A DNA stretch of 35,416 nt from a bacterium. Its GTDB lineage: Bacteria > Spirochaetota > JAHITG01. Below are positions 1,762 through 35,379 of the stretch, one piece after another (position 1 is the first letter of the stretch; every line of letters begins with the position of its first letter). The position numbers and the translations under genes were made by a program. Below the pieces are notes generated by a model that was not told where the DNA came from, ran no database searches, and saw nothing but the letters and a program-made list of their open reading frames with translations. Location: NCBI GenBank assembly GCA_028711675.1, contig JAQTRT010000003.1, forward strand, positions 1-35,416, in the 5' to 3' direction.

Positions 1762-4700
1762 TTATCTGATCGTAAAAAAATCATCCTCCGGAAAGGAGAG
1801 CATCAGTTTTTCCCCCTGTAAAACAAAAAAACCGGGCCTGTAATATCTGCCGCTTAGCTTGGCTTTTAAAATAAAATAAATGTTATAATGCCCCTTTTTC
1901 AGCTCGGGAATGGGGAAAACAAGCTTCTCCTCCTGTCTGATCACACCGTAGTTCAGATTGGGCTTGATTTTATACAGATGGTAATCCTGGTAATTTTCCA
2001 CGTATTCGAATCCGGCCGGGATATAATCCACGATCTTGATGTTCGATAAATCTTTTTTGGAATTGATCCTTAAATGCACGATGATATCATCGCCGGGATT
2101 AAAGCTGGAACCCGCTCTTTTTAATTTACTGTAGTAATTCTCTCCCTCACTGATATATTTCAGACGATAATAACTTTTTTTAATCTTCAGGGACCTGTTG
2201 TTCTTTTTACTCATGGCGGGCTCAGGGATGATCCGGGTATACAGGCTCTCCTTCTGGCTTTGGTCAGGCATGATGGCATCCCATTCGATCTTAGCCGTGC
2301 CCGGATATAGTGGTTTGAACGACACAAGTATTTTTTTAGAGCCCAGGGCAGGGAGTCCGGCATATCTCCTGCTCTCGCTTCGGTACTTTCCGTTGATGAT
2401 GGTAAAAACAAATCTGCTCTTCACATCGATCTTCCTGTTGTTCCGGACCATGAAAGGGATAAACGCCTGGTCACGGAGGAATAAATAAGCCGGGACCCGG
2501 TAGCTCAACTGGTACTCGGCGGTATAGTTTTGAGGGATCCTGTTTAATCCAAGCTTCGTGTCATCCGTAAATCCCCACAGAACAACGTTCCAGGACCCGA
2601 AATTCTTCAGCACAAATTCGCTGACCAAAGGTACTCCTTTGCTGGTACTGAACAATTCATAATTATAAAGTGAATTGATCAGGTAATCGCTGTACAGGAG
2701 ATCGAATTTCTGCGGTTCCTCAGCCGGAGGCGCTGTTTTCTTGATCAACTGGCCCGGGAATATCATCCTGTCCTCAAGGGAAAGGTATAATTTATCATAT
2801 AAAGGATAGATATCCTGATTGTATAATTCCATATAGTTCCTGTTCAGGGTAAAAAAAAGCACAGCGGCTTTCAGCTCATGGTTCCAGTAATTAACGGGTT
2901 TGATACTGATCCTGTGAAAATTTGTATGATCGGACCTGTTCGAGATCACGGTATTAACTTTTAAAAACTTATTATAGTAAGGAACGCGGATTATGGTCTT
3001 CCGGCTGATGAGCTTATTCCTCTGATGGATGCTCACATACGCGAACACCTCCGGGGAGTACTGTTCATCCACAGGAAAATCAAAAATAGTAAAATTCTTC
3101 TCGGTAAAGTTCATGGTATTATGGAAGAAACGGATCCCCTCAAAGATAAGATTATACCAGCCTTTCTTGAATGGAAAGATAATGAGCAACTTGCCGATAT
3201 CACTGTACACATATTCTTTTTTATCCTGGATAATGACGATGTCATCCAGATGGCTGGGCGGTTCGATACCGTAAATATAGGATAACACCCAAAAAGAGGA
3301 CGAGGTCTGCACTTTATTATTATTCTTATCCAGCAGAAGAAAGGAGGCCCGGTAATATCCGGTCTTGTTCAAACGAAAAGTGATCTCGTTCTTGTCGGGA
3401 TCCAGGCTAAAGGTACGGATCAGCTTGCTCTTTCCCCCTTTCATATCCAGGATACGGTAGAGTTTCAGGGTCAAAGACCTGGGTCTGTCACGGTCATTCA
3501 GCCGGATCAGTTCATAATTAAGCGTGAGGGGATTTTCCACCTCGAACAGATTGCGTGAGGTGGTGATCCTCATGTCATAATCGGCCTGAAGGATCTTTAT
3601 CATCCTGTAATTAGCTTCCTTGAGCCCGTTGTTGCCCCTTGCTTTAATGACAAACTTCAATTCATAATTCCCGGTCCTGGCTGCTGACAGTTTCTTGATC
3701 TTGAACCTGACCTTCCCGGAGCCTGCCCGCTTCTTTAAAGTGTACAGGTATCTGAAATTCCCAGTGGAATTCAGTTCTCTCAGGAACACATCGCAAAAGA
3801 CATCCCCCTGGCGCAGAGGAGGACCGTACCGGCAGGCGATCGATGCCGTGACCTCAACAGGTTCGTCGGTATAATAAACATCCTTTTCCGTGGAGACCTT
3901 GATCTCGTATTCCGGAAAATTCTTCTTTAAAAGAACGAATGGCCGGCGCCGGCTGAAGTCCAGCCCTTTAACCTCAAGGTAGTACAAGCCGTCACTGAAT
4001 GAATCATCCAGGACGAAAGAATCGCTCACATACCCTGTCTCGATGTTCCGGAATTTTTTGCTTTTCACGGGAAGGGAATTACTGTTCAGGATCGAAATCT
4101 CCACCTCGGACAGGGAACGGTTATAATAATCAAAGAACTCCCTTTCTTTCAGCAGTATCACATAAAGCAGGTTCTCGCCGATGTAAAAATATTCTTTCGG
4201 AAAAATGATCTCTGTATACGGTTCAGGCCTTCGGGGATGGATCTGGTCTTCCCGGATGGAAAGCAAGTCCATCTGGTTGCTGTATACGGCGGTCAGGACA
4301 TAATCGGCCTTCTCCAGGCTGCAGTCATAAAAATAACCGCTATTCCGGGGGAGCGGAAGGAGATATTCTCCCTTCCGGATAAAAAGGTCATACCCGGAGA
4401 CCGGTATATCGGTTACTGTATCTACCAGGTAACTGCTGGCCTGGTCATTCAGAAGCCGGGTCACCAGCTTATAGCGGCTGATCAGGAGAAGGATGTTCGT
4501 ATTCCAAGTAGTCCCGGACAGGATCAACCGGTAAAATCCCCGGTCCAGATGAGAAAGAGGAAGATCATACCTGTATCGTGCCTGTTTGCGTAAGAGTCTC
4601 GCCCACAGGTTCCGTTCGATCCTCTTCCCCCTGATCACGCTTTTTCCTATGGTCTTTTCTGTATAAAGGGGTCCGTTCGCCATAAGGACAAGGGAGAACT

Positions 4701-4833
4701 GCAGCTCTTTTTCCGGACGGAACCCCAGCCGGATGATCTTTTTATCCGGGCTGTAAAACTTTAAAAGATTCTGACCGGATGAGATCAAAGGGAAAAAAAG
4801 AAGCAAAAATATAAGGATCGTTTTTTTCTTCAT
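1762..4833 (-). CDS. Secreted alpha-2-macroglobulin-like (macroglobulin-domain) protein lacking a recognisable thioester domain
   Basis: ORF 1762..4893; the likely start is the internal ATG at 4833 (MKKKTILIFLLLFFPLISSGQ, signal peptide) with GGAAGG just upstream. MG-like segments (VYYTDEPVEVTASIACRYGPPLRQGDV; PAYLFLRDQAFIPFMVRNNRK) and a C-terminal IVDYIPAGFEYV segment typical of the bacterial A2M C-terminus. No CxEQ motif. Confidence 0.6.
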   Translation of the reverse strand: MKKKTILIFLLLFFPLISSGQNLLKFYSPDKKIIRLGFRPEKELQFSLVLMANGPLYTEKTIGKSVIRGKRIERNLWARLLRKQARYRYDLPLSHLDRGFYRLILSGTTWNTNILLLISRYKLVTRLLNDQASSYLVDTVTDIPVSGYDLFIRKGEYLLPLPRNSGYFYDCSLEKADYVLTAVYSNQMDLLSIREDQIHPRRPEPYTEIIFPKEYFYIGENLLYVILLKEREFFDYYNRSLSEVEISILNSNSLPVKSKKFRNIETGYVSDSFVLDDSFSDGLYYLEVKGLDFSRRRPFVLLKKNFPEYEIKVSTEKDVYYTDEPVEVTASIACRYGPPLRQGDVFCDVFLRELNSTGNFRYLYTLKKRAGSGKVRFKIKKLSAARTGNYELKFVIKARGNNGLKEANYRMIKILQADYDMRITTSRNLFEVENPLTLNYELIRLNDRDRPRSLTLKLYRILDMKGGKSKLIRTFSLDPDKNEITFRLNKTGYYRASFLLLDKNNNKVQTSSSFWVLSYIYGIEPPSHLDDIVIIQDKKEYVYSDIGKLLIIFPFKKGWYNLIFEGIRFFHNTMNFTEKNFTIFDFPVDEQYSPEVFAYVSIHQRNKLISRKTIIRVPYYNKFLKVNTVISNRSDHTNFHRISIKPVNYWNHELKAAVLFFTLNRNYMELYNQDIYPLYDKLYLSLEDRMIFPGQLIKKTAPPAEEPQKFDLLYSDYLINSLYNYELFSTSKGVPLVSEFVLKNFGSWNVVLWGFTDDTKLGLNRIPQNYTAEYQLSYRVPAYLFLRDQAFIPFMVRNNRKIDVKSRFVFTIINGKYRSESRRYAGLPALGSKKILVSFKPLYPGTAKIEWDAIMPDQSQKESLYTRIIPEPAMSKKNNRSLKIKKSYYRLKYISEGENYYSKLKRAGSSFNPGDDIIVHLRINSKKDLSNIKIVDYIPAGFEYVENYQDYHLYKIKPNLNYGVIRQEEKLVFPIPELKKGHYNIYFILKAKLSGRYYRPGFFVLQGEKLMLSFPEDDFFTIR

Positions 4834-4928
4834 ACCTTCCAAAGGGATAATATAATTAAAAACAAAATCAAATATATTATCCCGGTGATCCAATTGACTT
4901 TAAAAAAATATTTAATACATATATATCC

Positions 4929-6308
4929 ATGGATTTACACGATGCGGAAAAGCTGGTAAGAAAGAATCTTTCCAAGGACATAGAGCAGATCACGGAAAAA
5001 TTCGCAGAACACGATTATGACATCTTCATTGTCGGAGGATTCATCCGGGACCTGATCCTCGGACGGAGCAAACCGGGGCAGGAGATGGACCTGGCTACAA
5101 ACGCCAGGCCTGAGGAGATAAAAAAGATCTTCCGTAGAACTATTCCCACCGGTATCCGGCATGGTACCATCACCCTCATCTGGGAGGAAAAAACCTATGA
5201 GATCACGACCTTCCGGGCAGACGGTAAATATACGGACGGCAGGCACCCGGATACGGTCCGGTTCTCAAAGACCATCGAAGAAGACCTTTCCCGCCGGGAC
5301 TTTACTATTAATGCCCTGGCCTTTGACCTGAGAAAACAAAGACTGATCGATCATCATGAAGGCCTGAAAGACCTGGAAGCCGGGATCATCCGCACTATCG
5401 GGAACCCGGATGACCGTTTCCAGGAAGACGGGTTGAGGCTCATGCGCGCCATCCGTTTTGCCACAGTCCTGAACTTCCGTATCGAAGAGAAAACCAGACG
5501 GAGCATCAGCAAGAACCTGTACATGCTGAGTAAAGTGGCCATGGAGAGGATCAAGGACGAATTCGTGAAACTCATGCAGGCGGAGAAGCCGTCCCAGGGT
5601 ATTGAATTCATGAGAAAGAGCGAAATGCTCAGAAAGCTCATTCCCGAATTATTGACGGGATTCGGTCTGCTCCAGAATAAATTCCATAAATATGACGTGT
5701 ATTATCATCTGTTATACTCCTGCGATGCCGCTCCCGGGGACAACCTGAACGTCCGCCTGGCCGCCCTGTTCCATGATGTCTGCAAGCCCGCGACCCGTCT
5801 GAATAAGGATGAAGCGAAGGAAGCTACGTTTTATAACCATGAGATATTAAGCAGCCTGGTGGCGAAAAAGATACTGAAGAGGATGAAATTCAGCAATGAA
5901 ATAATCAACAAAGTGGAAAAACTCATCGCCCTCCACATGTTCTATTATACGGACGAATGGACAGATTCAGCCGTCCGGCGGTTCCTGAGAAAAGCCGGTC
6001 TGGACCTCCTGGATGAACTTTTCGTCCTCAGAGAAGCGGACCGCATCGGGAACGGCACCAAGGAAGAAAAATCCAAACACCTGGAAGAGCTGAAGAAACG
6101 GATAAGAAAAATACTGGATGAAGAGAACGCTTTCTCTCTGAAACACCTGAAGATCAACGGCCAGGACGTTATGAGGATCAAAGGCATACCGCCGTCCCCC
6201 CTTGTGGGAAAGATACTTAATGCTATCATGGAAAAAGTACTGGAAGACTCATCGCTCAACACAAAGGAAAAGCTGGAAGAGCTTGTGAAAGAATATAAAG
6301 AATCATGA
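4929..6308 (+). CDS. CCA tRNA nucleotidyltransferase / poly(A) polymerase family with HD domain
   Basis: 459 aa; IVGGFIRDLILGR, MDLATNARPEEIK, RRDFTINALAFD, DGLRLMRAIRFA, LFHDVCKP (HD). Confidence 0.9.
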   Translation: MDLHDAEKLVRKNLSKDIEQITEKFAEHDYDIFIVGGFIRDLILGRSKPGQEMDLATNARPEEIKKIFRRTIPTGIRHGTITLIWEEKTYEITTFRADGKYTDGRHPDTVRFSKTIEEDLSRRDFTINALAFDLRKQRLIDHHEGLKDLEAGIIRTIGNPDDRFQEDGLRLMRAIRFATVLNFRIEEKTRRSISKNLYMLSKVAMERIKDEFVKLMQAEKPSQGIEFMRKSEMLRKLIPELLTGFGLLQNKFHKYDVYYHLLYSCDAAPGDNLNVRLAALFHDVCKPATRLNKDEAKEATFYNHEILSSLVAKKILKRMKFSNEIINKVEKLIALHMFYYTDEWTDSAVRRFLRKAGLDLLDELFVLREADRIGNGTKEEKSKHLEELKKRIRKILDEENAFSLKHLKINGQDVMRIKGIPPSPLVGKILNAIMEKVLEDSSLNTKEKLEELVKEYKES

Positions 6309-15777: not shown

Positions 15778-18700
15778 TTATTTATAGTACAGTTCTAAAA
15801 TAGAACCGTCCGATGTACTGATATAAGTACTGTTCTGGGAAATGATCAGAGGACGCGTATAGACAGGGGTGCTCCAGACATATTTCCATTTCTGCTTTCC
15901 GGTCTCCAGGTCGACGGCGTACACTGTTCCCTTCTCCTCGGAAAAGACCACCAGGGTCTCCCTGATATCAGGCACGGATTTTATAGAGGAATTAACGTAA
16001 AACTTCCAGTTGATCTTTCCCTCCGGGTATACAGAGTACAGGATGCTGCCTGCCCCGAAATAAAAATTATATTTATCCGAGCACACACCGCCTTCCACAG
16101 GCATCTCCACCCTGATCTGCCTGGACACTTCACCCGTGTTCTTGTTTAAAATATAAAAAATCCCTTTATCCGTACCGGCACCGATATAATTCTGGCAGAG
16201 GGCCGGTGAACCGCGGATGCCGCCCACAGCCTCGAATACCCATACTTTCCGGCCGTTGCGGTCCAGGCATATGACCTCTCCATCCCGGTTGCAGAAATAA
16301 AGCCTGTCCTTATCGAGGACGATGTCGCCGGAGAGCATGCTTCCGGAATTGAACTTCCAGGCCAGCTGGCCTGTTATCATATTCAAAGAATATACATTTC
16401 CATTCTCCGTGCCGAAATAAATATTCCCTTTATCCATGGCCGGGAAACCCGTGATCCGGCTCTCCGCGTCAAATGTCCAGAGCTTATTCAGGTCCGCATT
16501 CATGCAGATCATCCGGCCGTCCTCCAGACCGGCATAGACCCGTTTATTAAAGGACCGGACATCAGAGGTGACAGGCACGCCAAAGACCTGTTTATTCCTG
16601 ATCAATTCCTTGGAACGGGAAAGGGTATCGATGGCATACAGGATACCGCCGTTGTCTCCGGCATACAGGATACCATTATCATAATCCGCGTTCCCCGCGG
16701 ATGCCGAATAAAGGGAATAGATATTCATGAGCCGGACATCAGGGACCAGGGCGATCAGTCTCTCCTGCGCCCACTGGGCCATCTGGGTCCCGGGTATCAT
16801 GATGATGACCCTTTTATAGGACTGGATGGCTTTCTCCAGGTATTTCGGGACATCCATTTTCATGGCTACCTGCATCTTTTGTTCATATATCTTTCCGGCT
16901 CCGTAATAATAAAGCGGAACCTCCTGCACGGAAAGGGCTACCTCGATGCATTTGACAGCTTCATCGATCTTGCCCGGCATCAGGTACAGGGTCCGTGCCA
17001 GATAAAAATAAAAAGCCGGCACATCCTCCTTAAGACGGAGGGCTTGCTTGAAATTATATTCGGACTTGACGTAATCATTCAGCTTGAAATACCCGAGGCC
17101 GCAGTTAAAATACGCCGGGTCATAATTCCTGTCCAATTCTTTCGTGGCTTCGAATTCACGCACTGCTTTCTGGTAATCCCCTTTCTTGAAATGCGCGATA
17201 CCCAGGTTGATATGCGCGTTCAGGTTCCCGGGATTCACGGTAATGGCATCGGTAAATATCTTCAGGGCTTCGTCGAAACTCTCGCTTTTCATGAAAATCT
17301 CGCCGATATCGTTCAGGACCGAATCATTTTTCGGATCAAGTTCCAGGGACTTGCTGTAATAATTATATGAGGTTTTGTAATCACCCTGGTTCATATAAAT
17401 CAGGCCCAGCATCTGATAGTAATCCGGGGACTGGGGAAAATTTCTGATCCCCTCGTTCAATATCTTTTCCGCATTCCGGAAATCCTTTTTGATAATGTAA
17501 ATATTAGCCAGGTTCAGATACAGTTCTTTCATGTCCCGGTAGGTCTTCAGGGCCATTTTATAGCTTTCAATGGCCTTGTCATACTCACCCCGTTCATACT
17601 GATCCCCGGCTGTATTGATATATTTCAAGCTCTCCAGGTAATCGATCTTATCCTGCGCATCGAAAAAGGACGGGTTATACCGCAGGGCGTTCTGGAACTC
17701 ATCCCGTGACTCACTGTACTGTTTCGCGTTGAACAATACCACGCCTTTTTTATAATGAGCGTTCGCCAGCCTGTTCTTAGCGGGCTTGAAACCCGGATTG
17801 AGCTGAAGCGCTTTCTTGTATTCTTCAATGGCTTCATTGAACTTTTTATTGGCCTCAAGGCTCAAGCCCAGTTTGTAATAAAGCTGCGGGTCCTGGCCTT
17901 TCAGTTTTTCCAGCTGTTCGCTCACTTTCCTGGCATTCTGCACGTCACCGCTGTTCCGGTACGCCCTTTCCAGCCCCAGAAGGGCGGGGAAATAATTCTT
18001 CTCCTTCTCCAGGGCTTTCTTGTAGTTCAGGACAGCGGACGGATAAACAGCGGTCTCCAGATAAGAGTTGCCCAGGTTCACCAGGATCTCGAGGAAATCC
18101 GGCTGCATTTTAAGGGCCTGGTTATATTTTTCAATGGCTGCTTTATAATTCTTCTCCTCAAACAATTTATTCCCTTCCTGGACCAGGAGCATGGCTGAGG
18201 ATTTCTTCGAGAATTCCGTTGCCTTTTCCAGGTCCTTGTTCAGCTGATAAGCCTTGTTAAAGGACTCCCTGGCTTCCTTGTATCTTTCTACTTCATAATA
18301 CGCAACTCCCAGGTTCAGGTAAGCTTCCGCATAATCATTCTTTAAACTGATACCGGCCTGAAAGCTCTCGATGGCTTTAGTAAAGGATTCGGTCTCGTTA
18401 TAGACCATCCCCATTAAATTAAATATCCGGTAATTTTCAGGCCATTTTTCCTTGGCTTCTTTCAAGTAATTAATGGCGTCCTTGTATCGTTTAGCCTTTA
18501 AAAAGATATCCACCAGAGTCAGGTACAGATTCACGTCATCGCTCTTTATCTTATACGCTTTCAGCAGATACTGTTCGGCTGAAACAGCATCATTAAGGAA
18601 ATAAAAGGACTGGCCTGTTAAAAAATTCAGTTCATAATTGTCCGGGATCAGTCTTTCAGACTCGCGGAAGGAAAGAAGAGCTTCCTTGTATTTTTTATCC

Positions 18701-19482
18701 TGGAACAGTTCCCTGCCCTGCCTCAATAAAAGAAGGCCGCTGGCCATGTCCCGGGTATCGCTGAGCCGTTTATCTTTGTTGATTTTCAGGCCTTCGTCAA
18801 GCACTTCCATGGCCTTCTGATAATCTTTTAGCTGGATATATATCTGGCCCAGTCCGAGATAAGCTTCCCAAAGGGATTTATCCAGGTCCCTGGCCTTTTC
18901 ATAATTTTTAAAAGCATCGTCAAAGGCCGAATCCCCGTAATAGATATTGGCGATCTCCAGGAATGGAGCCGGATCACGGGAGTTGATCTTCGTTACCAGC
19001 AGGAAGTTCTTCAGGGCGTTATCCCTATCCTCCAGTTTCTTGCAGGCCAGGCCTTTGGTATAATAAGCATCCGCAGTCCGGGGATTGAACCTGATATAGT
19101 TATCCAGGTTCTCGATGCTGTTCTTGTACTGGCTATCCTTATAATACGCATTACCCAGACCGAGATAAGCATCAGACAGGTCCGGCCATTCCTTTAAAGC
19201 CGCCTGAAAATCGTCAATGGCAGCCTTGTATTTTCCCGCCTTGAAATTCTTATTGCCGCTGTTGGCCTTCTCCACGGCTTTGTTCCGTTTTTTCTTCTCG
19301 TCATTGGTCAGCGTGTCCCAGTTCCTCTCTTTTTGCGCAGTCTCGGGCACATCCACATCCCGGGCTGTCAGGACCTGTTTTTCGGTTTCTCCGGATGTAC
19401 TGACCGATTTTTTAAATACAGCGCAATTCTGGTACAGGAGAGCCTGCCCTATAATAACAGTTAATAATAATATTTTTTTCAT
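15778..19482 (-). CDS. Large lipoprotein: long TPR array fused to a C-terminal PQQ-type beta-propeller
   Basis: 1234 aa; lipobox LLYQNC; many TPR units (AYLGLGNAYYKDSQYKNSIENLDNYIRFNP etc.); C-terminal repeats NIYFGTENGNVYSLNMITGQLAWKFNSGS, GTVYAVDLETGKQKWKYVW typical of PQQ repeats. Confidence 0.88.
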   Translation of the reverse strand: MKKILLLTVIIGQALLYQNCAVFKKSVSTSGETEKQVLTARDVDVPETAQKERNWDTLTNDEKKKRNKAVEKANSGNKNFKAGKYKAAIDDFQAALKEWPDLSDAYLGLGNAYYKDSQYKNSIENLDNYIRFNPRTADAYYTKGLACKKLEDRDNALKNFLLVTKINSRDPAPFLEIANIYYGDSAFDDAFKNYEKARDLDKSLWEAYLGLGQIYIQLKDYQKAMEVLDEGLKINKDKRLSDTRDMASGLLLLRQGRELFQDKKYKEALLSFRESERLIPDNYELNFLTGQSFYFLNDAVSAEQYLLKAYKIKSDDVNLYLTLVDIFLKAKRYKDAINYLKEAKEKWPENYRIFNLMGMVYNETESFTKAIESFQAGISLKNDYAEAYLNLGVAYYEVERYKEARESFNKAYQLNKDLEKATEFSKKSSAMLLVQEGNKLFEEKNYKAAIEKYNQALKMQPDFLEILVNLGNSYLETAVYPSAVLNYKKALEKEKNYFPALLGLERAYRNSGDVQNARKVSEQLEKLKGQDPQLYYKLGLSLEANKKFNEAIEEYKKALQLNPGFKPAKNRLANAHYKKGVVLFNAKQYSESRDEFQNALRYNPSFFDAQDKIDYLESLKYINTAGDQYERGEYDKAIESYKMALKTYRDMKELYLNLANIYIIKKDFRNAEKILNEGIRNFPQSPDYYQMLGLIYMNQGDYKTSYNYYSKSLELDPKNDSVLNDIGEIFMKSESFDEALKIFTDAITVNPGNLNAHINLGIAHFKKGDYQKAVREFEATKELDRNYDPAYFNCGLGYFKLNDYVKSEYNFKQALRLKEDVPAFYFYLARTLYLMPGKIDEAVKCIEVALSVQEVPLYYYGAGKIYEQKMQVAMKMDVPKYLEKAIQSYKRVIIMIPGTQMAQWAQERLIALVPDVRLMNIYSLYSASAGNADYDNGILYAGDNGGILYAIDTLSRSKELIRNKQVFGVPVTSDVRSFNKRVYAGLEDGRMICMNADLNKLWTFDAESRITGFPAMDKGNIYFGTENGNVYSLNMITGQLAWKFNSGSMLSGDIVLDKDRLYFCNRDGEVICLDRNGRKVWVFEAVGGIRGSPALCQNYIGAGTDKGIFYILNKNTGEVSRQIRVEMPVEGGVCSDKYNFYFGAGSILYSVYPEGKINWKFYVNSSIKSVPDIRETLVVFSEEKGTVYAVDLETGKQKWKYVWSTPVYTRPLIISQNSTYISTSDGSILELYYK

Positions 19483-28309: not shown

Positions 28310-28498
28310 ATGGCGAAATGTGCGATTTGCGGAAAAAAACCGGTGTACGGCAATAATGTGAGCCACTCCAACCTGAAGACAAGAAGGGTCTGGCAGCCTA
28401 ATACACATAAGATGCGGATCATCATCGATGGTAAGCCGGCCCGGGTGAATGTCTGTGCTCAGTGCATCAAGTCCGGTAAAGTACAAAAAGCTATTTAG
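28310..28498 (+). CDS. rpmB: 50S ribosomal protein L28
   Basis: 62 aa; MAKCAICGKKPVYGNNVSHSNLKTRRVWQPNTHKMRI; C-x2-C...C-x2-C (zinc-binding form). Confidence 0.97.
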   Translation: MAKCAICGKKPVYGNNVSHSNLKTRRVWQPNTHKMRIIIDGKPARVNVCAQCIKSGKVQKAI

Positions 28499-29423
28499 AT
28501 AAGATCAGATTGGGGTGTTCCGCGATCTTCTCGGAAAAATCTTCCCACTCCTTCATCGTTTTCTCGATCTTCCGGTAATATTCCTCACTAAAAATAAGCT
28601 TGCCTGTTATGTTTTTCTCTCCGGTAATGGATTCAGTCTCATATTTCAGGTTCTGGCTGATCAGGATCACGTTCTCCAGGGATAAGTTCAGGCTGCTGAG
28701 GTCCTTATCAAGTTCCTTGAGGCCGAGAAACAGTTCATTCATATCGTTCTTATCAATAGAACGGATGTTAACCTTTAACCGGTCGATAAATCCTTTAAAA
28801 TCCTTTACCCTGGCCAGCGCCACTTCTGTGTTCTCTTTAAAAGACGTGATGTCTCCCATAGTACCGGGTCTTTTATCGCGGATGGTATCCAGATAATGCC
28901 TTAAACCCTGGTTGATATTGTTCATCAGCTCCTGAAAAGCGGGTATCTTGACGTCCTTGGCATAGATGGTCTTCTGGGTCAGTTTAGCCAGACTGATCTG
29001 GAATATCTCCAGACTTAAAGCATCATTCCCCATCAGGCTCGTGCCGGAAGCGATAAAACCGCCGGAATTCTCGTTCTGGTCCAGTTCAACGAACTTTTCC
29101 CCCATCATGCCCACGGTAAAGATACTGATGTCCGCTCTTTCCCTTACCTTGAAATCCTCCATAATGTTCAGGAGGACCATGATCTTATTCCCTGACCGGT
29201 ATATCTTTTTCACATACCCGATCCTCACTCCGCCGATGAACTTCACATCCGCCCCTTTTTTTAAATCAGCCACAAAATTGAACTGGACAGGTATCGGATA
29301 ATACTTGACCAGAACGAATTCCCGGATGATAAAGACCGTGGAAAGAGTCAGGAGCAGGATCAGAGTGAAAAAAATGATCCCGATCTTGTGCAATGTTTCC
29401 CTGCTGATCTCTTTTTCCTGCAT
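28491..29423 (-). CDS. MCE-domain (MlaD-like) protein
   Basis: 310 aa; N-terminal TM; VQFNFVADLKKGADVKFIGGVRIGYVKKI...GMMGEKFVELD MCE domain; long helical C-terminus. Confidence 0.85.
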   Translation of the reverse strand: MQEKEISRETLHKIGIIFFTLILLLTLSTVFIIREFVLVKYYPIPVQFNFVADLKKGADVKFIGGVRIGYVKKIYRSGNKIMVLLNIMEDFKVRERADISIFTVGMMGEKFVELDQNENSGGFIASGTSLMGNDALSLEIFQISLAKLTQKTIYAKDVKIPAFQELMNNINQGLRHYLDTIRDKRPGTMGDITSFKENTEVALARVKDFKGFIDRLKVNIRSIDKNDMNELFLGLKELDKDLSSLNLSLENVILISQNLKYETESITGEKNITGKLIFSEEYYRKIEKTMKEWEDFSEKIAEHPNLILSK

Positions 29424-29484: not shown

Positions 29485-29520
29485 AAATAAAAAGCCGCTG
29501 TAGGGGAATACAGCGGCTTT
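29485..29520 (-). terminator. Rho-independent terminator
   Basis: Minus strand AAAGCCGCTGTA-TTCCCC-TACAGCGGCTTT (12-bp perfect stem) followed by TTATTTTTA; downstream of the MshEN gene. Confidence 0.88.
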
Positions 29521-29614
29521 AAGAAGTAATCAATCATTGTAAGGAGGAGTCTTTACTTTGTTCTCTCCCTTATCATATTTATCGTCACTAATTTAAAATT
29601 TCTTTAACTCTTTT

Positions 29615-30430
29615 TTAAGGAAATTTCAACAGGATATTCTCCCCGGCCTGTGTGGGGAAAACAAGGACCCGGATCATGAATTCCCTGTTGCTGATATTTT
29701 TTCTGAAAATCCCCTCGGAAAATTCCTTGGAATGCAGGGGAAGCTTGGCCAGGCTCTTGATATTGGCGGCAATATGCTTATAGTACTGGTCCTGGACCGG
29801 CCTGCTCTTGATGACGGAACTAGTCGTAAGAAAAAGGATGGTGAACCGGTTCTCGAAATATTCCAGGTGTATCTCGCGGGCAGACATATTATACGCCTGA
29901 TTAAAGAGCATATCCAGCATCTTGGCCGCGGATATCTTATAATTATGGTATTCTTCTTCCTTATCCTGATTATCCTCCCAGTCATATTCCCGTTTACCGA
30001 AGCAGACATGGATCGCGTCCAGAATGGACTTTTCCGGGCTAAGAACGACCTCGATGCTGTAATCCGTTGTGAACTTGATCTGGTCCACAAAAGAAAGATC
30101 ATACGGATTGGTAGCCGCAACGGTCAGGCGGTTCTCGTTCAGGAGAATGGGGATGAGCCTGTACTTTCTGCAGATGGTTTCCGGGATAAGCTTGACGATA
30201 AGGGGATTTAACATCTGGATGTTCACTTTAACAGCGGGGATACCGAACTGCCTTTCCAGGATCCTGATCAGATCATCTTCAGTGATATATCCCAGGTTAA
30301 TGAGGGTATGCCCCAGCCGGTCCCCGGTCTTTCTCTGTTCCTCAAGGGCATTGAGGAGCTGTTCATTGCTTATTTTCTTTTCATTGATTAACAGTTGACC
30401 CAGCGGAATCTCTACTTTCTTTGGTTCCAT
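29615..30430 (-). CDS. MshEN-domain protein with degenerate GspE/PilB-like C-terminus, no ATPase core
   Basis: 271 aa; two 24-residue MshEN motifs PLGQLLINEKKISNEQLLNALEEQ + RKTGD + RLGHTLINLGYITEDDLIRILERQ; C-terminus resembles the GspE N2 region (AREIHLEYFENRFTI...FPTQAGENILLKF) then stops before Walker A. Confidence 0.85.
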   Translation of the reverse strand: MEPKKVEIPLGQLLINEKKISNEQLLNALEEQRKTGDRLGHTLINLGYITEDDLIRILERQFGIPAVKVNIQMLNPLIVKLIPETICRKYRLIPILLNENRLTVAATNPYDLSFVDQIKFTTDYSIEVVLSPEKSILDAIHVCFGKREYDWEDNQDKEEEYHNYKISAAKMLDMLFNQAYNMSAREIHLEYFENRFTILFLTTSSVIKSRPVQDQYYKHIAANIKSLAKLPLHSKEFSEGIFRKNISNREFMIRVLVFPTQAGENILLKFP

Positions 30431-30494
30431 AGTTATTTAACCGCGTTTGTTCAGAATAGCGCTTAAGGGAAACCGATCAGCTGTCTTGGGATTT

Positions 30495-30815
30495 TTAAGA
30501 TAAATCCTTATAAAATCTGAAGTATTGCCCTATCTTGGTAGCGGTAAAAACATCCAGCACGTCCTTGGATATGGAAAGGATACCCATTTCACCGCTGGCT
30601 TTATTGAGACGCTTGACCGCATCGATGAGAACCCCCAGGCCGGAACTGTCAATATAGACCACGTTCTTAAAATCGATCAGTATCTTCTTTTCGTTCTTGC
30701 CGATCAGGTCGTTAAGCACTGTCTTCAAGTCACCCACGTTATTGAACTCTATCTCGGAATTGGGCTCCGTGAAGCGGACGATGGAATAATCTTTTAATTT
30801 TTCAACTACAATCAT
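30495..30815 (-). CDS. STAS-domain anti-sigma factor antagonist
   Basis: 106 aa; ILIDFKNVVYIDSSGLGVLIDAVKRL is the canonical STAS phosphorylation site region. Confidence 0.93.
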   Translation of the reverse strand: MIVVEKLKDYSIVRFTEPNSEIEFNNVGDLKTVLNDLIGKNEKKILIDFKNVVYIDSSGLGVLIDAVKRLNKASGEMGILSISKDVLDVFTATKIGQYFRFYKDLS

Positions 30816-30827
30816 GGTCTTGGTCTT

Positions 30828-31370
30828 TTATTTATCGTTTAATTCATTGGCGGAATAAAATTTCATACAAGCCACCTTGTTCTTCTTCTCATTATAATAC
30901 ATGCCGCCGTTCCAGAACTCAACGGCCGCGAAGAGGGAATTCCCGCCGTCCATATCAGAACTGTCCTCTGTCCGGTACGATATATAATTAAGCATTTCCT
31001 CGAAATTATTGCACATGAAGCATTCGGTGCGTTTAGCGTTGAACTCGTTCCAGTGGTCCAGGTTTTTGAATCCCTCTCCCTCGTCCTCCACGATGATACG
31101 GGCGAATTTTTTTTCGCTATTGAATTCCCACCATACTTTTATCTTCTTTTCCGGATCCTTCCTGTTTCCGTGAACAATGGCATTTTTTATGATCTCGCTG
31201 ATCTGCTGTTCCAATAAATTCCTCATTTTTAAATTATCCGGCGCTTCGAACACGATGATGGTGGCAAAGTTTCTAATCTGATTGAATTTACTGGGAAAAA
31301 CGCGGGATTTGGTATTGGCCGTATTGAAATACGGGCTATTCTCATCAACGATTAGCTTTTTTGCCGGCAT
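30828..31370 (-). CDS. RsbW-like HATPase (anti-sigma regulatory kinase family)
   Basis: 180 aa; N box EQQISEIIKNAIVHGNRKDPEKKIKV, G1 IIVEDEGEGFKN, divergent G2 GGNSLFAAVEFW. Confidence 0.85.
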   Translation of the reverse strand: MPAKKLIVDENSPYFNTANTKSRVFPSKFNQIRNFATIIVFEAPDNLKMRNLLEQQISEIIKNAIVHGNRKDPEKKIKVWWEFNSEKKFARIIVEDEGEGFKNLDHWNEFNAKRTECFMCNNFEEMLNYISYRTEDSSDMDGGNSLFAAVEFWNGGMYYNEKKNKVACMKFYSANELNDK

Positions 31371-31396
31371 AATCCTTCCTTTTATGAACCGCTTAT

Positions 31397-31424
31397 ATAA
31401 TAAATTAATTTAATAAAATGTCAA
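31397..31424 (-). promoter_or_regulatory. Sigma70-type promoter for the HATPase-STAS-MshEN operon
   Basis: Minus strand TTGACA (31424-31419), 16-nt spacer, TATTAT (31402-31397). Confidence 0.65.
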
Positions 31425-31517: not shown

Positions 31518-32369
31518 ATGCTCACTAACATTAAGTACTACTCATGCCCTCAGAGCATAAATGAAGCGGTCAGGGAACTGACCAAAGGCAGGGGCCGGTA
31601 CTCCATCCTGGCCGGCGGCACGTCATCCCTGATCCATACCCATCCCCGCTGCCTTGGTTTTGTGAGCTTAAAGGACCTCGGCCTGGGATACATACGGCAA
31701 GCAAAGGGAATGCTCCGGATCGGGGCTATGACGCGGATCCAGGAGATCCTTGAGGATAAAAGGGCAGGAAGATTGGCCGGCGGTTTGTTATACAAAGCTT
31801 GTTCCTGCCTGGGATCGACATTGAACCGGAGCCTCATCACAGCAGGAGGGAACATGACCCAGATCTTCCGCTGGAGCGATTTTCCAGTGGCTCTCCTTGT
31901 TCTGGACACGAAAATAACGGTTGCCGGGCCGTCACGGATGACGGTTCCGCTCATTGACCTCCTCAAGAAACATCCTAAAACAAAATTAAAATACAATCAG
32001 ATCATAACAGAGATCGGGATCCGAGATCCCGGGAAAGGATACAGGAGCGAATTCATAAAATTCTCCAGGACCAATTTTGACCTGGCTATCCTCAGTATAG
32101 CTGTCCTGGCCTGTGTGAACCAGGGCCGATGCACAGATATCCGTATCGCATACGGCGCTGTCCAGCCCCTCTGTTTCAGAGCTTATGGACTGGAAGAACT
32201 GATCAAAGGCCAAAGGATCAGCGAAGAATTAATCCAAAAAGCCGGTGAGGAAAGCACCCGGCTTATATCCTGCTCCAGAGACCTGCGGGTCAGCCCCGAA
32301 TACCAGAGGTCCCTGCTGAAAACATTGACCTTACGGGCTTTAAAAAAGGTCCTGCTGAACCCTAAATGA
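31518..32369 (+). CDS. FAD-binding subunit of a xanthine dehydrogenase-family molybdenum hydroxylase
   Basis: 283 aa; YSILAGGTSSLIH, LRIGAMTRIQEIL, LGSTLNRSLITAGGNM; SD aaggag upstream. Confidence 0.9.
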   Translation: MLTNIKYYSCPQSINEAVRELTKGRGRYSILAGGTSSLIHTHPRCLGFVSLKDLGLGYIRQAKGMLRIGAMTRIQEILEDKRAGRLAGGLLYKACSCLGSTLNRSLITAGGNMTQIFRWSDFPVALLVLDTKITVAGPSRMTVPLIDLLKKHPKTKLKYNQIITEIGIRDPGKGYRSEFIKFSRTNFDLAILSIAVLACVNQGRCTDIRIAYGAVQPLCFRAYGLEELIKGQRISEELIQKAGEESTRLISCSRDLRVSPEYQRSLLKTLTLRALKKVLLNPK

Positions 32370-32503
32370 ATTTTTATGAAATATTCCTGGTATCCATGGG
32401 TTCCCGCTGATTCCAACAGGATTTCCGATCATGTCTGTACTGTTGAATACGGCAGATACCGGCAAAGGCCGATGCCCGACTCGGGCCATAAGGAGGCTTT
32501 TTC

Positions 32504-32968
32504 ATGCATATCCATCTGACAATCAACGGCCAGAAAAAAAGGATAGAAGTACGGCCCGGCGATATCTTGCTTGATGTCCTGAGAAAGGAAGGGTATCAAA
32601 GCATTAAAAAAGGATGCGGTCTGGGGGAATGCGGGGCCTGCGCTGTCCTTCTCGATAACAGGCCTGTTAATTCCTGTCTGGTCCTGGCAGCTGATGCGGA
32701 CGGATCAGAAATCACGACTGCAGAAGGCCTGGGAACACCGGATAAACCTCATTTCCTTCAGGAAGCCTTTGTGAAAGCCGGGGCTGTACAGTGCGGATAC
32801 TGCACACCAGGTATGATCATTTCCGCCAAAGCCCTCCTGGACAGGAATCCCCGGCCTTCAACCGAAGAGATAAAAAAAGGCCTGGACGGTAATTACTGCC
32901 GTTGCACAGGATATGTGAAGATCATAGATGCTGTCCGACAGGCGGCCCTTAAATTAAAACGTTCATAG
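32504..32968 (+). CDS. (2Fe-2S)-binding subunit of a xanthine dehydrogenase-family enzyme
   Basis: 154 aa; KKGCGLGECGACAVLLD and CGYCTPGMIISAKALLDRNPRPSTEEIKKGLDGNYCRCTGY; SD aaggagg upstream. Confidence 0.97.
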   Translation: MHIHLTINGQKKRIEVRPGDILLDVLRKEGYQSIKKGCGLGECGACAVLLDNRPVNSCLVLAADADGSEITTAEGLGTPDKPHFLQEAFVKAGAVQCGYCTPGMIISAKALLDRNPRPSTEEIKKGLDGNYCRCTGYVKIIDAVRQAALKLKRS

Positions 32969-33060
32969 TTTCTGGTTCATGGTTCAGGGATAGGGAAAAG
33001 ATCCTGAAATGACGGCCATGAACGATAAACCATGGACAAAGAGAAGCGAGGATATCCATC

Positions 33061-35379
33061 ATGGAATTAAAATATGTCGGCCGGTCCTGCGATAAGATCG
33101 ATGGTTTGGGACTGGCAGCGGGAAAAGCAGAATTCACCGATGATATCTATCTGCCTGACCTGCTTTATGCCAGGATACTGGGTTCACCCCATGCCCATGC
33201 CGAGATCCTGGAGATCGATCCGTCAGATGCCGTAAAATTGACCGGTGTAAAAGCTGTTCTCACCTACAAGGACCTTCCCCGGATACCCCATACCACGGCC
33301 GGCCAGGGTTATCCTGAGCCATCCCCCTATGACACATTCACACTGGATAAAAAAGTACGGTTCGCGGGTGACCGTGTCGCGGCAGTAGCTGCTGTGGACG
33401 CAGAGACGGCGGAAAGGGCCCTTGAACTGATAAAAGTAAAATATAAAATACTTCCTGCTCTCCTGGATATGCGGAAAGCACATGAGCCCGGTTCCCCGGT
33501 CATTCACGATGAACCGGAAGCCCATACCATCATCCCCCTGAAATACAAACCTGAACAGAACATTGCCACTGAAGTAGATGCCTCGGCAGGAGACATGGAG
33601 AAAGGGTTCCGGGAAGCTGATTTCATCCTGGACCATGAATACTCGGCGCATTACGCCTCCCACTGCGCAAATGAGACCCATATCGTTATCACATACCTTG
33701 ACTCCAACAACCGCTTGATTATCCGTTCCAGCACACAGGTCCCTTTTCATGTACGCAGGATCGTGGCGGACAGGCTTCAGGTCCCGGTCTCCCGCATCAG
33801 GGTCATCAAACCCCGTATCGGAGGCGGATTCGGCGGCAAGCAGGAGGTGCTCATCGAGGATATCTGCAGCGCCCTGACATTAAAGACAGGCAAGCCTGTC
33901 AAGCTGCAGTACACAAGGGAAGAGGAATTCATCGCTTCCCGCACAAGGCATCCTCAGATCGTTAAATTAAAAACAGGCGTTAAAAAGGACGGAACGCTGA
34001 CAGCCATGGACATGCAGGTTCTCATGAACACAGGCGCGTACGGAAGCCATTGTCTGACCGTTGCCTGCAACACAGGAAGCAAAGTGCTGCCCTTATTGCG
34101 CTGTGAGAACATCCATTTCAAGGCTACATCCGTTTATACCAACCTGCCGGTCGGCGGGGCTTACCGGGGATACGGCGCAACCCAGGGATATATCGCCCTG
34201 GGCATACAAACGGACGAGATGGCGGAAAAGACCGGGATGGATATCACGGAGTTCTATAAAAAGAACCATATCCGGATCAATGAGACATCCCCGGTCTTCA
34301 AGGCCCTCGGCGAGGGACGGGAAGGCGTTCTGCAGAACATAGAAAGCTGCGGTCTGGATGAATGTATCGATGCCGGGATAAAGGAAAGCGACTGGTTTAA
34401 AAAGAAAAAACAGTATCAGGACCAGAAAGGGACTGTGAAACGGGGAATGGGCATGGTGGCCCTGATGCAGGGGTCCAGCATCCCGGATATCGATATGGGC
34501 GCGGCCAGTATAAAAATGAACGAGGATGGTTCGTTCAATCTGCTCGTGGGCGCCACGGACCTGGGGACAGGCTCGGATACCATCCTGGCCCAGATCGTAG
34601 CGGAAGTGCTTGATGTACCCGTAGAAAAGGTACTCGTTTATTCCTCTGACACGGACCTGACGCCTTTTGATGTAGGGGCTTATGCTTCTTCCACAACGTA
34701 TCTGTCCGGCCAGGCCGTTAAAAAAACAGCAGAAGATATCAGGGAGCAGATTCTGGACACAGCATCAGAAATGCTGGGCCGGGACAAACAGGACCTTGAT
34801 ACGTCCGCCGGCGCTGTCATTGACAGGAGCAGCGGCCGGAAAACAACCTACCAGGAGATCGCCCTGCATTCCCTGTATGAAAGGAACCAGCACCAGATCG
34901 CCTCCATCAAGTCCCATATCACGCATAAATCCCCGCCCCCTTTTGCCGCTCATTTTGCCGAAGTGGAAGTGGACACAGAGACAGGTAAGGTGACGGTATT
35001 GAAATATGTGGCAGCCGTAGAATGCGGGAAAGCCATCAATCCTCTTCTGGCAGAAGGACAGACAGAAGGAGCCGTAGTCAACGGCATCAGCTATGCTCTT
35101 ACTGAAGAATACCTGTTCGACAATCAGGGCCGGATGCTCAATCCCAACTTCGCTAATTATAAGCTTTATTTCACAAAAGACCTGCCTGAGATAAAGACCA
35201 TCCTGATCGAAGGCCATCCGGAACCCACCGGTCCTTACGGAGCCAAGAGCGTCTCCGAGATATCCATCAACGGCCCCATCCCCGCCATCTCCAACGCTCT
35301 GTATCAAGCCCTGGGTGTCCGCCTTCGTCATCCGCCGTTCACACCGGAAAAAATATTAAAGGCCCTGGGCAGGATATAG
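33061..35379 (+). CDS. Molybdopterin-binding subunit of a xanthine dehydrogenase-family enzyme
   Basis: 772 aa; RIGGGFGGKQE, VGGAYRGYGATQGY, VGATDLGTGSDTILAQIVAEVL, GPYGAKSVSEISINGPIPAISNAL. Confidence 0.95.
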   Translation: MELKYVGRSCDKIDGLGLAAGKAEFTDDIYLPDLLYARILGSPHAHAEILEIDPSDAVKLTGVKAVLTYKDLPRIPHTTAGQGYPEPSPYDTFTLDKKVRFAGDRVAAVAAVDAETAERALELIKVKYKILPALLDMRKAHEPGSPVIHDEPEAHTIIPLKYKPEQNIATEVDASAGDMEKGFREADFILDHEYSAHYASHCANETHIVITYLDSNNRLIIRSSTQVPFHVRRIVADRLQVPVSRIRVIKPRIGGGFGGKQEVLIEDICSALTLKTGKPVKLQYTREEEFIASRTRHPQIVKLKTGVKKDGTLTAMDMQVLMNTGAYGSHCLTVACNTGSKVLPLLRCENIHFKATSVYTNLPVGGAYRGYGATQGYIALGIQTDEMAEKTGMDITEFYKKNHIRINETSPVFKALGEGREGVLQNIESCGLDECIDAGIKESDWFKKKKQYQDQKGTVKRGMGMVALMQGSSIPDIDMGAASIKMNEDGSFNLLVGATDLGTGSDTILAQIVAEVLDVPVEKVLVYSSDTDLTPFDVGAYASSTTYLSGQAVKKTAEDIREQILDTASEMLGRDKQDLDTSAGAVIDRSSGRKTTYQEIALHSLYERNQHQIASIKSHITHKSPPPFAAHFAEVEVDTETGKVTVLKYVAAVECGKAINPLLAEGQTEGAVVNGISYALTEEYLFDNQGRMLNPNFANYKLYFTKDLPEIKTILIEGHPEPTGPYGAKSVSEISINGPIPAISNALYQALGVRLRHPPFTPEKILKALGRI

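Follow-up and report, generated by a model that had tools for sequence, protein, structure and literature searches.

The HATPase-STAS-MshEN unit

The window (the whole stretch of DNA analysed, 35,416 nt) corresponds to contig C141 of the source genome, a member of the Spirochaetota designated G000, the assembly of which is 79% complete. On its minus strand, from position 31424 to 29485, lies a unit comprising a promoter, three genes and a strong terminator:

31397 to 31424, minus strand: sigma-70-type promoter, TTGACA-16-TATTAT, matching the consensus at 11 of 12 positions
30828 to 31370, minus strand: HATPase gene (180 aa), RsbW/SpoIIAB-like, putative serine kinase of its STAS partner
30495 to 30815, minus strand: STAS gene (106 aa), anti-anti-sigma-type, with a DSSGLG phosphosite motif
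29615 to 30430, minus strand: MshEN + N2D gene (271 aa), the front half of PilB/GspE without the RecA/Walker domain
29491 to 29520, minus strand: intrinsic terminator, a 12-bp stem followed by a T tract

The HATPase and STAS genes are separated by 12 bp, and the STAS and MshEN genes by 64 bp. The minus-strand unit of the preliminary description, with its own promoter, three genes, both gaps and strong terminator, was thus recovered in full. Of dinucleotide-shuffled versions of the 147-bp intergenic region, 0.55% reached a promoter match of 11/12 grade. Since a sequence scan of the gap between the STAS and MshEN genes found no terminator and no promoter match above 8/12, a single transcript for all three genes is the simplest reading and a likely one. 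A search with Rfam for an upstream riboswitch found none, the only Rfam matches in the 35,416-nt window being two tRNAs. Across the window (1-35416), six promoter matches of at least 11/12 were observed, compared with about one in shuffled sequence, and near-consensus sigma-70 promoters seem to be in use across the source genome.

Also identified in the window were a number of neighbouring genes. Past the terminator lies a single gene for an MCE/MlaD-domain protein (310 aa, 28491-29423) with its own promoter-like site (29457-29430), the convergent end of which is abutted by a short ORF (28310-28498) that reads as ribosomal protein bL28. A divergent unit (31518-35379) encodes FAD-binding, 2Fe-2S and molybdopterin-type subunits resembling xanthine dehydrogenase or CO dehydrogenase, and in a 1234-aa lipoprotein-like protein (15778-19482) numerous TPR-like repeats precede a propeller-like part, both descriptions being based on a reading of the sequence only.

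The HATPase-STAS pair and its putative phosphatase

The STAS protein scored 61.4 bits against Pfam STAS, over the cut-off, and 62.1 against TIGR00377, the anti-sigma-antagonist superfamily (cut-off 53.45). The phosphosite motif, DS(S/A/T)G with its phosphorylatable serine, reads DSSGLG in the window, and DSAGLG and DSSGLG in the orthologues found beside the HATPase gene in the relatives G001 and G002 (62% and 60% identical, respectively). Given that the MlaD-like gene lies just downstream (28491-29423), on the same strand and about 70 bp beyond the terminator, the STAS protein might instead represent an MlaB-like part of a lipid transporter. However, the intervening sequence contains both a strong terminator and a distinct promoter-like site, the STAS gene stays beside the HATPase gene in relatives, and the MlaB profile match is negligible (E 0.027, against 3.8e-17 for anti-anti-sigma). 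The MlaB assignment was rejected on this profile score, and we regard it as extremely improbable.

The HATPase was more divergent from established models, scoring 25.4 bits against Pfam HATPase_c_2, just under the cut-off of 27.4, and 32.7 against the NCBIfam SpoIIAB equivalog, far from its cut-off of 135. Judged by its sequence, the protein is a divergent relative, and is an equivalog of neither RsbW nor SpoIIAB. A profile built from 15 members nonetheless retrieved SpoIIAB (2e-7) and RsbW (6e-6) as its first matches in the PDB. Furthermore, the top 14 Foldseek matches to the AF2 model (pLDDT 90) were all SpoIIAB, RsbW or SigF anti-sigma factor, with SpoIIAB the best match, followed by the other two. 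The N-box and G1 residues E59, N63, D96, G98 and G100 are invariant across the 15 relatives.

Among 393 Spirochaetota genomes searched, the HATPase family was present in 144. A STAS gene adjoined the HATPase gene in 29 of the 30 best loci, and a PP2C gene was adjacent too in 25 of these, a layout that is the RsbU–RsbV–RsbW arrangement; in both such clusters read gene by gene, the order was PP2C–STAS–HATPase. In two genomes (L060 9528-10691, L061 1140-1484) the STAS-HATPase genes were followed by a conserved protein with no Pfam match, which is a candidate for the switch's target or its output.

As in the RsbU-RsbV-RsbW and SpoIIAA-SpoIIAB systems of Bacillus, a STAS antagonist with a DSSG motif is encoded beside a GHKL HATPase carrying an N-box (ExxKNxxxHGN) and a G1 box (DxGxG), and a SpoIIE-type PP2C is adjacent in most relatives. 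Unlike in those systems, the window HATPase possesses a longer ATP-lid region (WNxFxxxR) and DGGNxL where the G2 box is expected, and the order in the window is HATPase-STAS. The earlier assignment of the two proteins as a partner-switch pair is borne out by their families, their conserved residues, the predicted fold and the genes that surround them in relatives; the two likely represent a divergent RsbW–RsbV pair of a spirochaete-wide partner switch. Literature searches on a spirochaete Rsb switch found no paper. The assignment of a spirochaete-wide, sub-threshold HATPase family to RsbU–RsbV–RsbW-type regulation should aid the annotation of many spirochaete genomes.

Neither a PP2C phosphatase nor a sigma factor gene adjoins the pair in the window, from which it had previously been concluded that the output may be non-transcriptional. 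This does not follow, as a full-length RsbU-type PP2C orthologue is encoded on another contig of the same genome (G000:C276:10986-12689); because the cognate phosphatase is encoded in trans, the missing neighbour says nothing about output. Orthologues of this phosphatase were identified in relatives (G001:C344, G002:C1 and G004:C99); these and the G000 copy scored 268–278 bits, compared with at most 192 for the next match, and matches to SpoIIE-type phosphatases numbered 27 in all in G000. A STAS gene lies beside the PP2C orthologue in G000, G002 and G004; the G001 orthologue is at the end of its contig. The RsbUVW arrangement is split in the group to which the window belongs, the PP2C and one STAS gene being located apart from the HATPase and a second STAS gene.

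The protein families, the conserved residues, the fold, the arrangement of the genes in relatives and the presence of the phosphatase are all observed; from these we infer a cycle of phosphorylation and dephosphorylation. The HATPase would phosphorylate the STAS protein on the serine of its DSSG motif, and would bind a target for as long as the STAS protein is phosphorylated. The GAF-containing membrane PP2C encoded on contig C276, beside the second STAS gene, would then strip the phosphate from the STAS protein, which in its unphosphorylated form would draw the HATPase off its target.

The motor-less MshEN-N2D protein

The 271-aa protein scored 59.9 bits against Pfam MshEN, over the cut-off, and its profile matches included PilB (5zfr, 3e-45) and MshE (5htl, 2e-26). 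Its domain order, MshEN_N, MshEN_C and the N2D domain of PilB/GspE, is that of MshE, PilB, PilF and GspE; unlike these proteins, it ends before the RecA ATPase. A RecA-type ATPase with a Walker A motif was sought in the protein and is absent, the T2SSE match covering profile positions 9-109 of 370. Its earlier description as a short MshEN protein was accordingly right as to the MshEN domain but incomplete, in that the N2D domain is also present. The structural model is weak (pLDDT 60, from a four-sequence alignment), with the N2D part matching PilB at 1.8 Å over 105 columns.

The short protein was detected in 4 of the 393 Spirochaetota genomes, the window's included, with same-length orthologues in G001, G002 and G004 only (41–57% identical to the window copy). 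A pseudogene of full PilB was considered and rejected: the four orthologues share their end point, and no downstream open frame continues the domain. Given the same-length orthologues in three other genomes, the 271-aa protein is, by sequence comparison, a conserved shortened protein rather than a broken gene.

The clear derivation from PilB/GspE, together with the full GspE encoded in a T2SS-like cluster of G000 (contig C174), might suggest a regulatory role in which the protein mixes or competes with the full-length ATPase of a motor for type IV pili, type II secretion or Tad. Against this, the short protein is kept in G001 and G002, which lack PilB/GspE and possess only a CpaE-CpaF fusion ATPase, and in G004 (91% complete), which has no other T2SSE match. 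Since these three genomes keep the short protein without such a motor, no PilB/GspE partner appears to be needed. With three of the four holders lacking such a motor, a role as motor companion was disfavoured, and we consider motor regulation highly improbable. In genomes lacking PilB, its front half can thus persist on its own, in which respect the short protein also differs from MshE, PilB, PilF and GspE.

We also compared the protein with the MshEN consensus motifs (PMC5013675), using the residue numbers of V. cholerae MshE, with which the N-terminal numbering matches. Motif II (RLGxx..G..LxxxLxxQ) is complete, from R38 to Q61, as in the known MshEN domains. Motif I, (R/K/L)LGxx(LVI)(LVI)xxG(LVI)(LVI)xxxxLxxxLxxQ, is by contrast degraded, with P9 in place of R/K/L, K18 in place of G and K19 in place of LVI, while L25, L29 and Q32 are kept. 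In MshE, Arg9 and Gln32 matter and Asp108 touches the ligand (PMC5013675). The window copy alone carries N108 in place of the DP-motif aspartate, which the three orthologues keep. On this comparison, one of the two c-di-GMP half-sites (half-site I) is degraded (R9P, G18K; also D108N), and predicted c-di-GMP binding is for this reason uncertain.

These substitutions would fit a degenerate relative that has lost c-di-GMP binding and acts as a scaffold or partner of something else, a reading for which XpsE, where binding was lost via changes at several key residues, provides a precedent (PMC5013675). The intact motif II, the retention of Q32 and Q61, and the aspartate of the orthologues nevertheless argue against such a loss. 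In addition, the first motif residue may be K or L as well as R, and PilF GSPII-C binds c-di-GMP even though one of its motifs starts with a proline (PMC11731258). We consider degeneration unlikely. The MshEN–N2D protein is a PilB/GspE derivative that has lost its motor, and is probably a free-standing receptor with its own older role, possibly still for c-di-GMP, although its standing as a c-di-GMP receptor is uncertain. In many of the spirochaete genomes we also observed short open frames whose match, of about 55 residues, is confined to an MshEN_N-like c-di-GMP motif; one of these (L175 3488-3779, on G001:C87) runs off its contig.

Gene order in relatives and coupling of the two parts

Among the genomes compared, in which the window's genus was represented by the source genome alone, the HATPase-STAS-MshEN triplet was found only in that genome; it may be conserved within the genus. 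In G001, G002 and G004 the MshEN gene lies elsewhere, adjoining a PLD-type gene (G001, close to the contig end, with the downstream side unseen), aroA (G002), and a flavodoxin gene and lepB (G004), all named by sequence reading. The HATPase-STAS pair of G001 and G002, the two closest relatives, likewise has neighbours that differ from those in the window, facing a long HATPase gene with a HEAT-repeat gene after it and, in G001, a hydantoinase gene as well. The counterpart block of G000 (long HATPase, HEAT, hydantoinase) lies on contig C215, where it faces a GAF-GGDEF gene instead of the pair. At this locus (L056, G000:C215) the GAF-GGDEF diguanylate cyclase gene occupies 1291-2652 and the block 2658-5931. 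The C215 layout is consistent with relocation of the HATPase-STAS pair in the G000 lineage. Most simply, the pair would have moved to a position upstream of the MshEN gene, giving rise to a shared transcript in this lineage only.

It had been proposed that the MshEN protein provides the c-di-GMP input to the switch, or is an output of it, a proposal that finds no support beyond adjacency, the triplet not being conserved in relatives. Consistent with such coupling, in which the protein would bind c-di-GMP and feed the signal into the HATPase-STAS switch or be controlled by it, the genes share a strand, one promoter and one terminator across a 64-bp gap, and motif II is intact. Furthermore, 17 GGDEF matches were identified in G000, on account of which c-di-GMP is probably present in the source organism. 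Conversely, the MshEN gene is apart from the pair in every other holder, half-site I is degraded, the HATPase family elsewhere pairs with STAS and mostly PP2C, and the short MshEN protein occurs in just 4 of 393 genomes. We consider this coupling unlikely. The more specific proposal that a motor-less MshEN-N2D protein was recruited here, through relocation of the switch genes, as a c-di-GMP-responsive input or target of the RsbV/RsbW switch appears decidedly unlikely.

Literature searches on a link between MshEN and partner switching found no paper. In the sigma-WhiG-RsiG system of Streptomyces, c-di-GMP does act on an anti-sigma system (PMC13232838); in contrast to the arrangement considered here, it directly stabilises the sigma-anti-sigma complex, and HATPase, STAS and MshEN proteins are not part of it. 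If true, a c-di-GMP link at this locus would represent a direct new route, via an MshEN receptor, joining two large signalling systems, c-di-GMP and partner switching. The present evidence does not favour it.

Taken as a whole, the locus is best explained, with fair though far from complete confidence, by an ordinary RsbW/RsbV switch with an unrelated, motor-less MshEN neighbour. Shared function is only weakly indicated by a common promoter, and we infer co-transcription together with an absence of functional coupling, such that the HATPase-STAS pair and the MshEN gene probably stand side by side without forming a single circuit.

A co-occurrence was also observed between the short MshEN protein and the long HATPase, the two being present in an identical set of four among 393 genomes. 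A functional link between them was rejected, since a MutS tree groups the four holders together (support 94/91), and their co-occurrence is explained by descent within this clade. A contig search with a single-protein query returned no matches; with an alignment query, the window's nearest relatives were spirochaete MAGs, e.g. JAHITG010000325 and JAFGFC010000187. The long HATPases, restricted to these four Spirochaetota genomes (L053 7097-8071, L054 8188-9165, L055 5849-6799, L056 2658-3632 and L062 3029-3976), yielded no Pfam match for their N-terminal domain in the two scanned; they comprise about 320 aa, of which this uncharacterised domain makes up about 150 aa.
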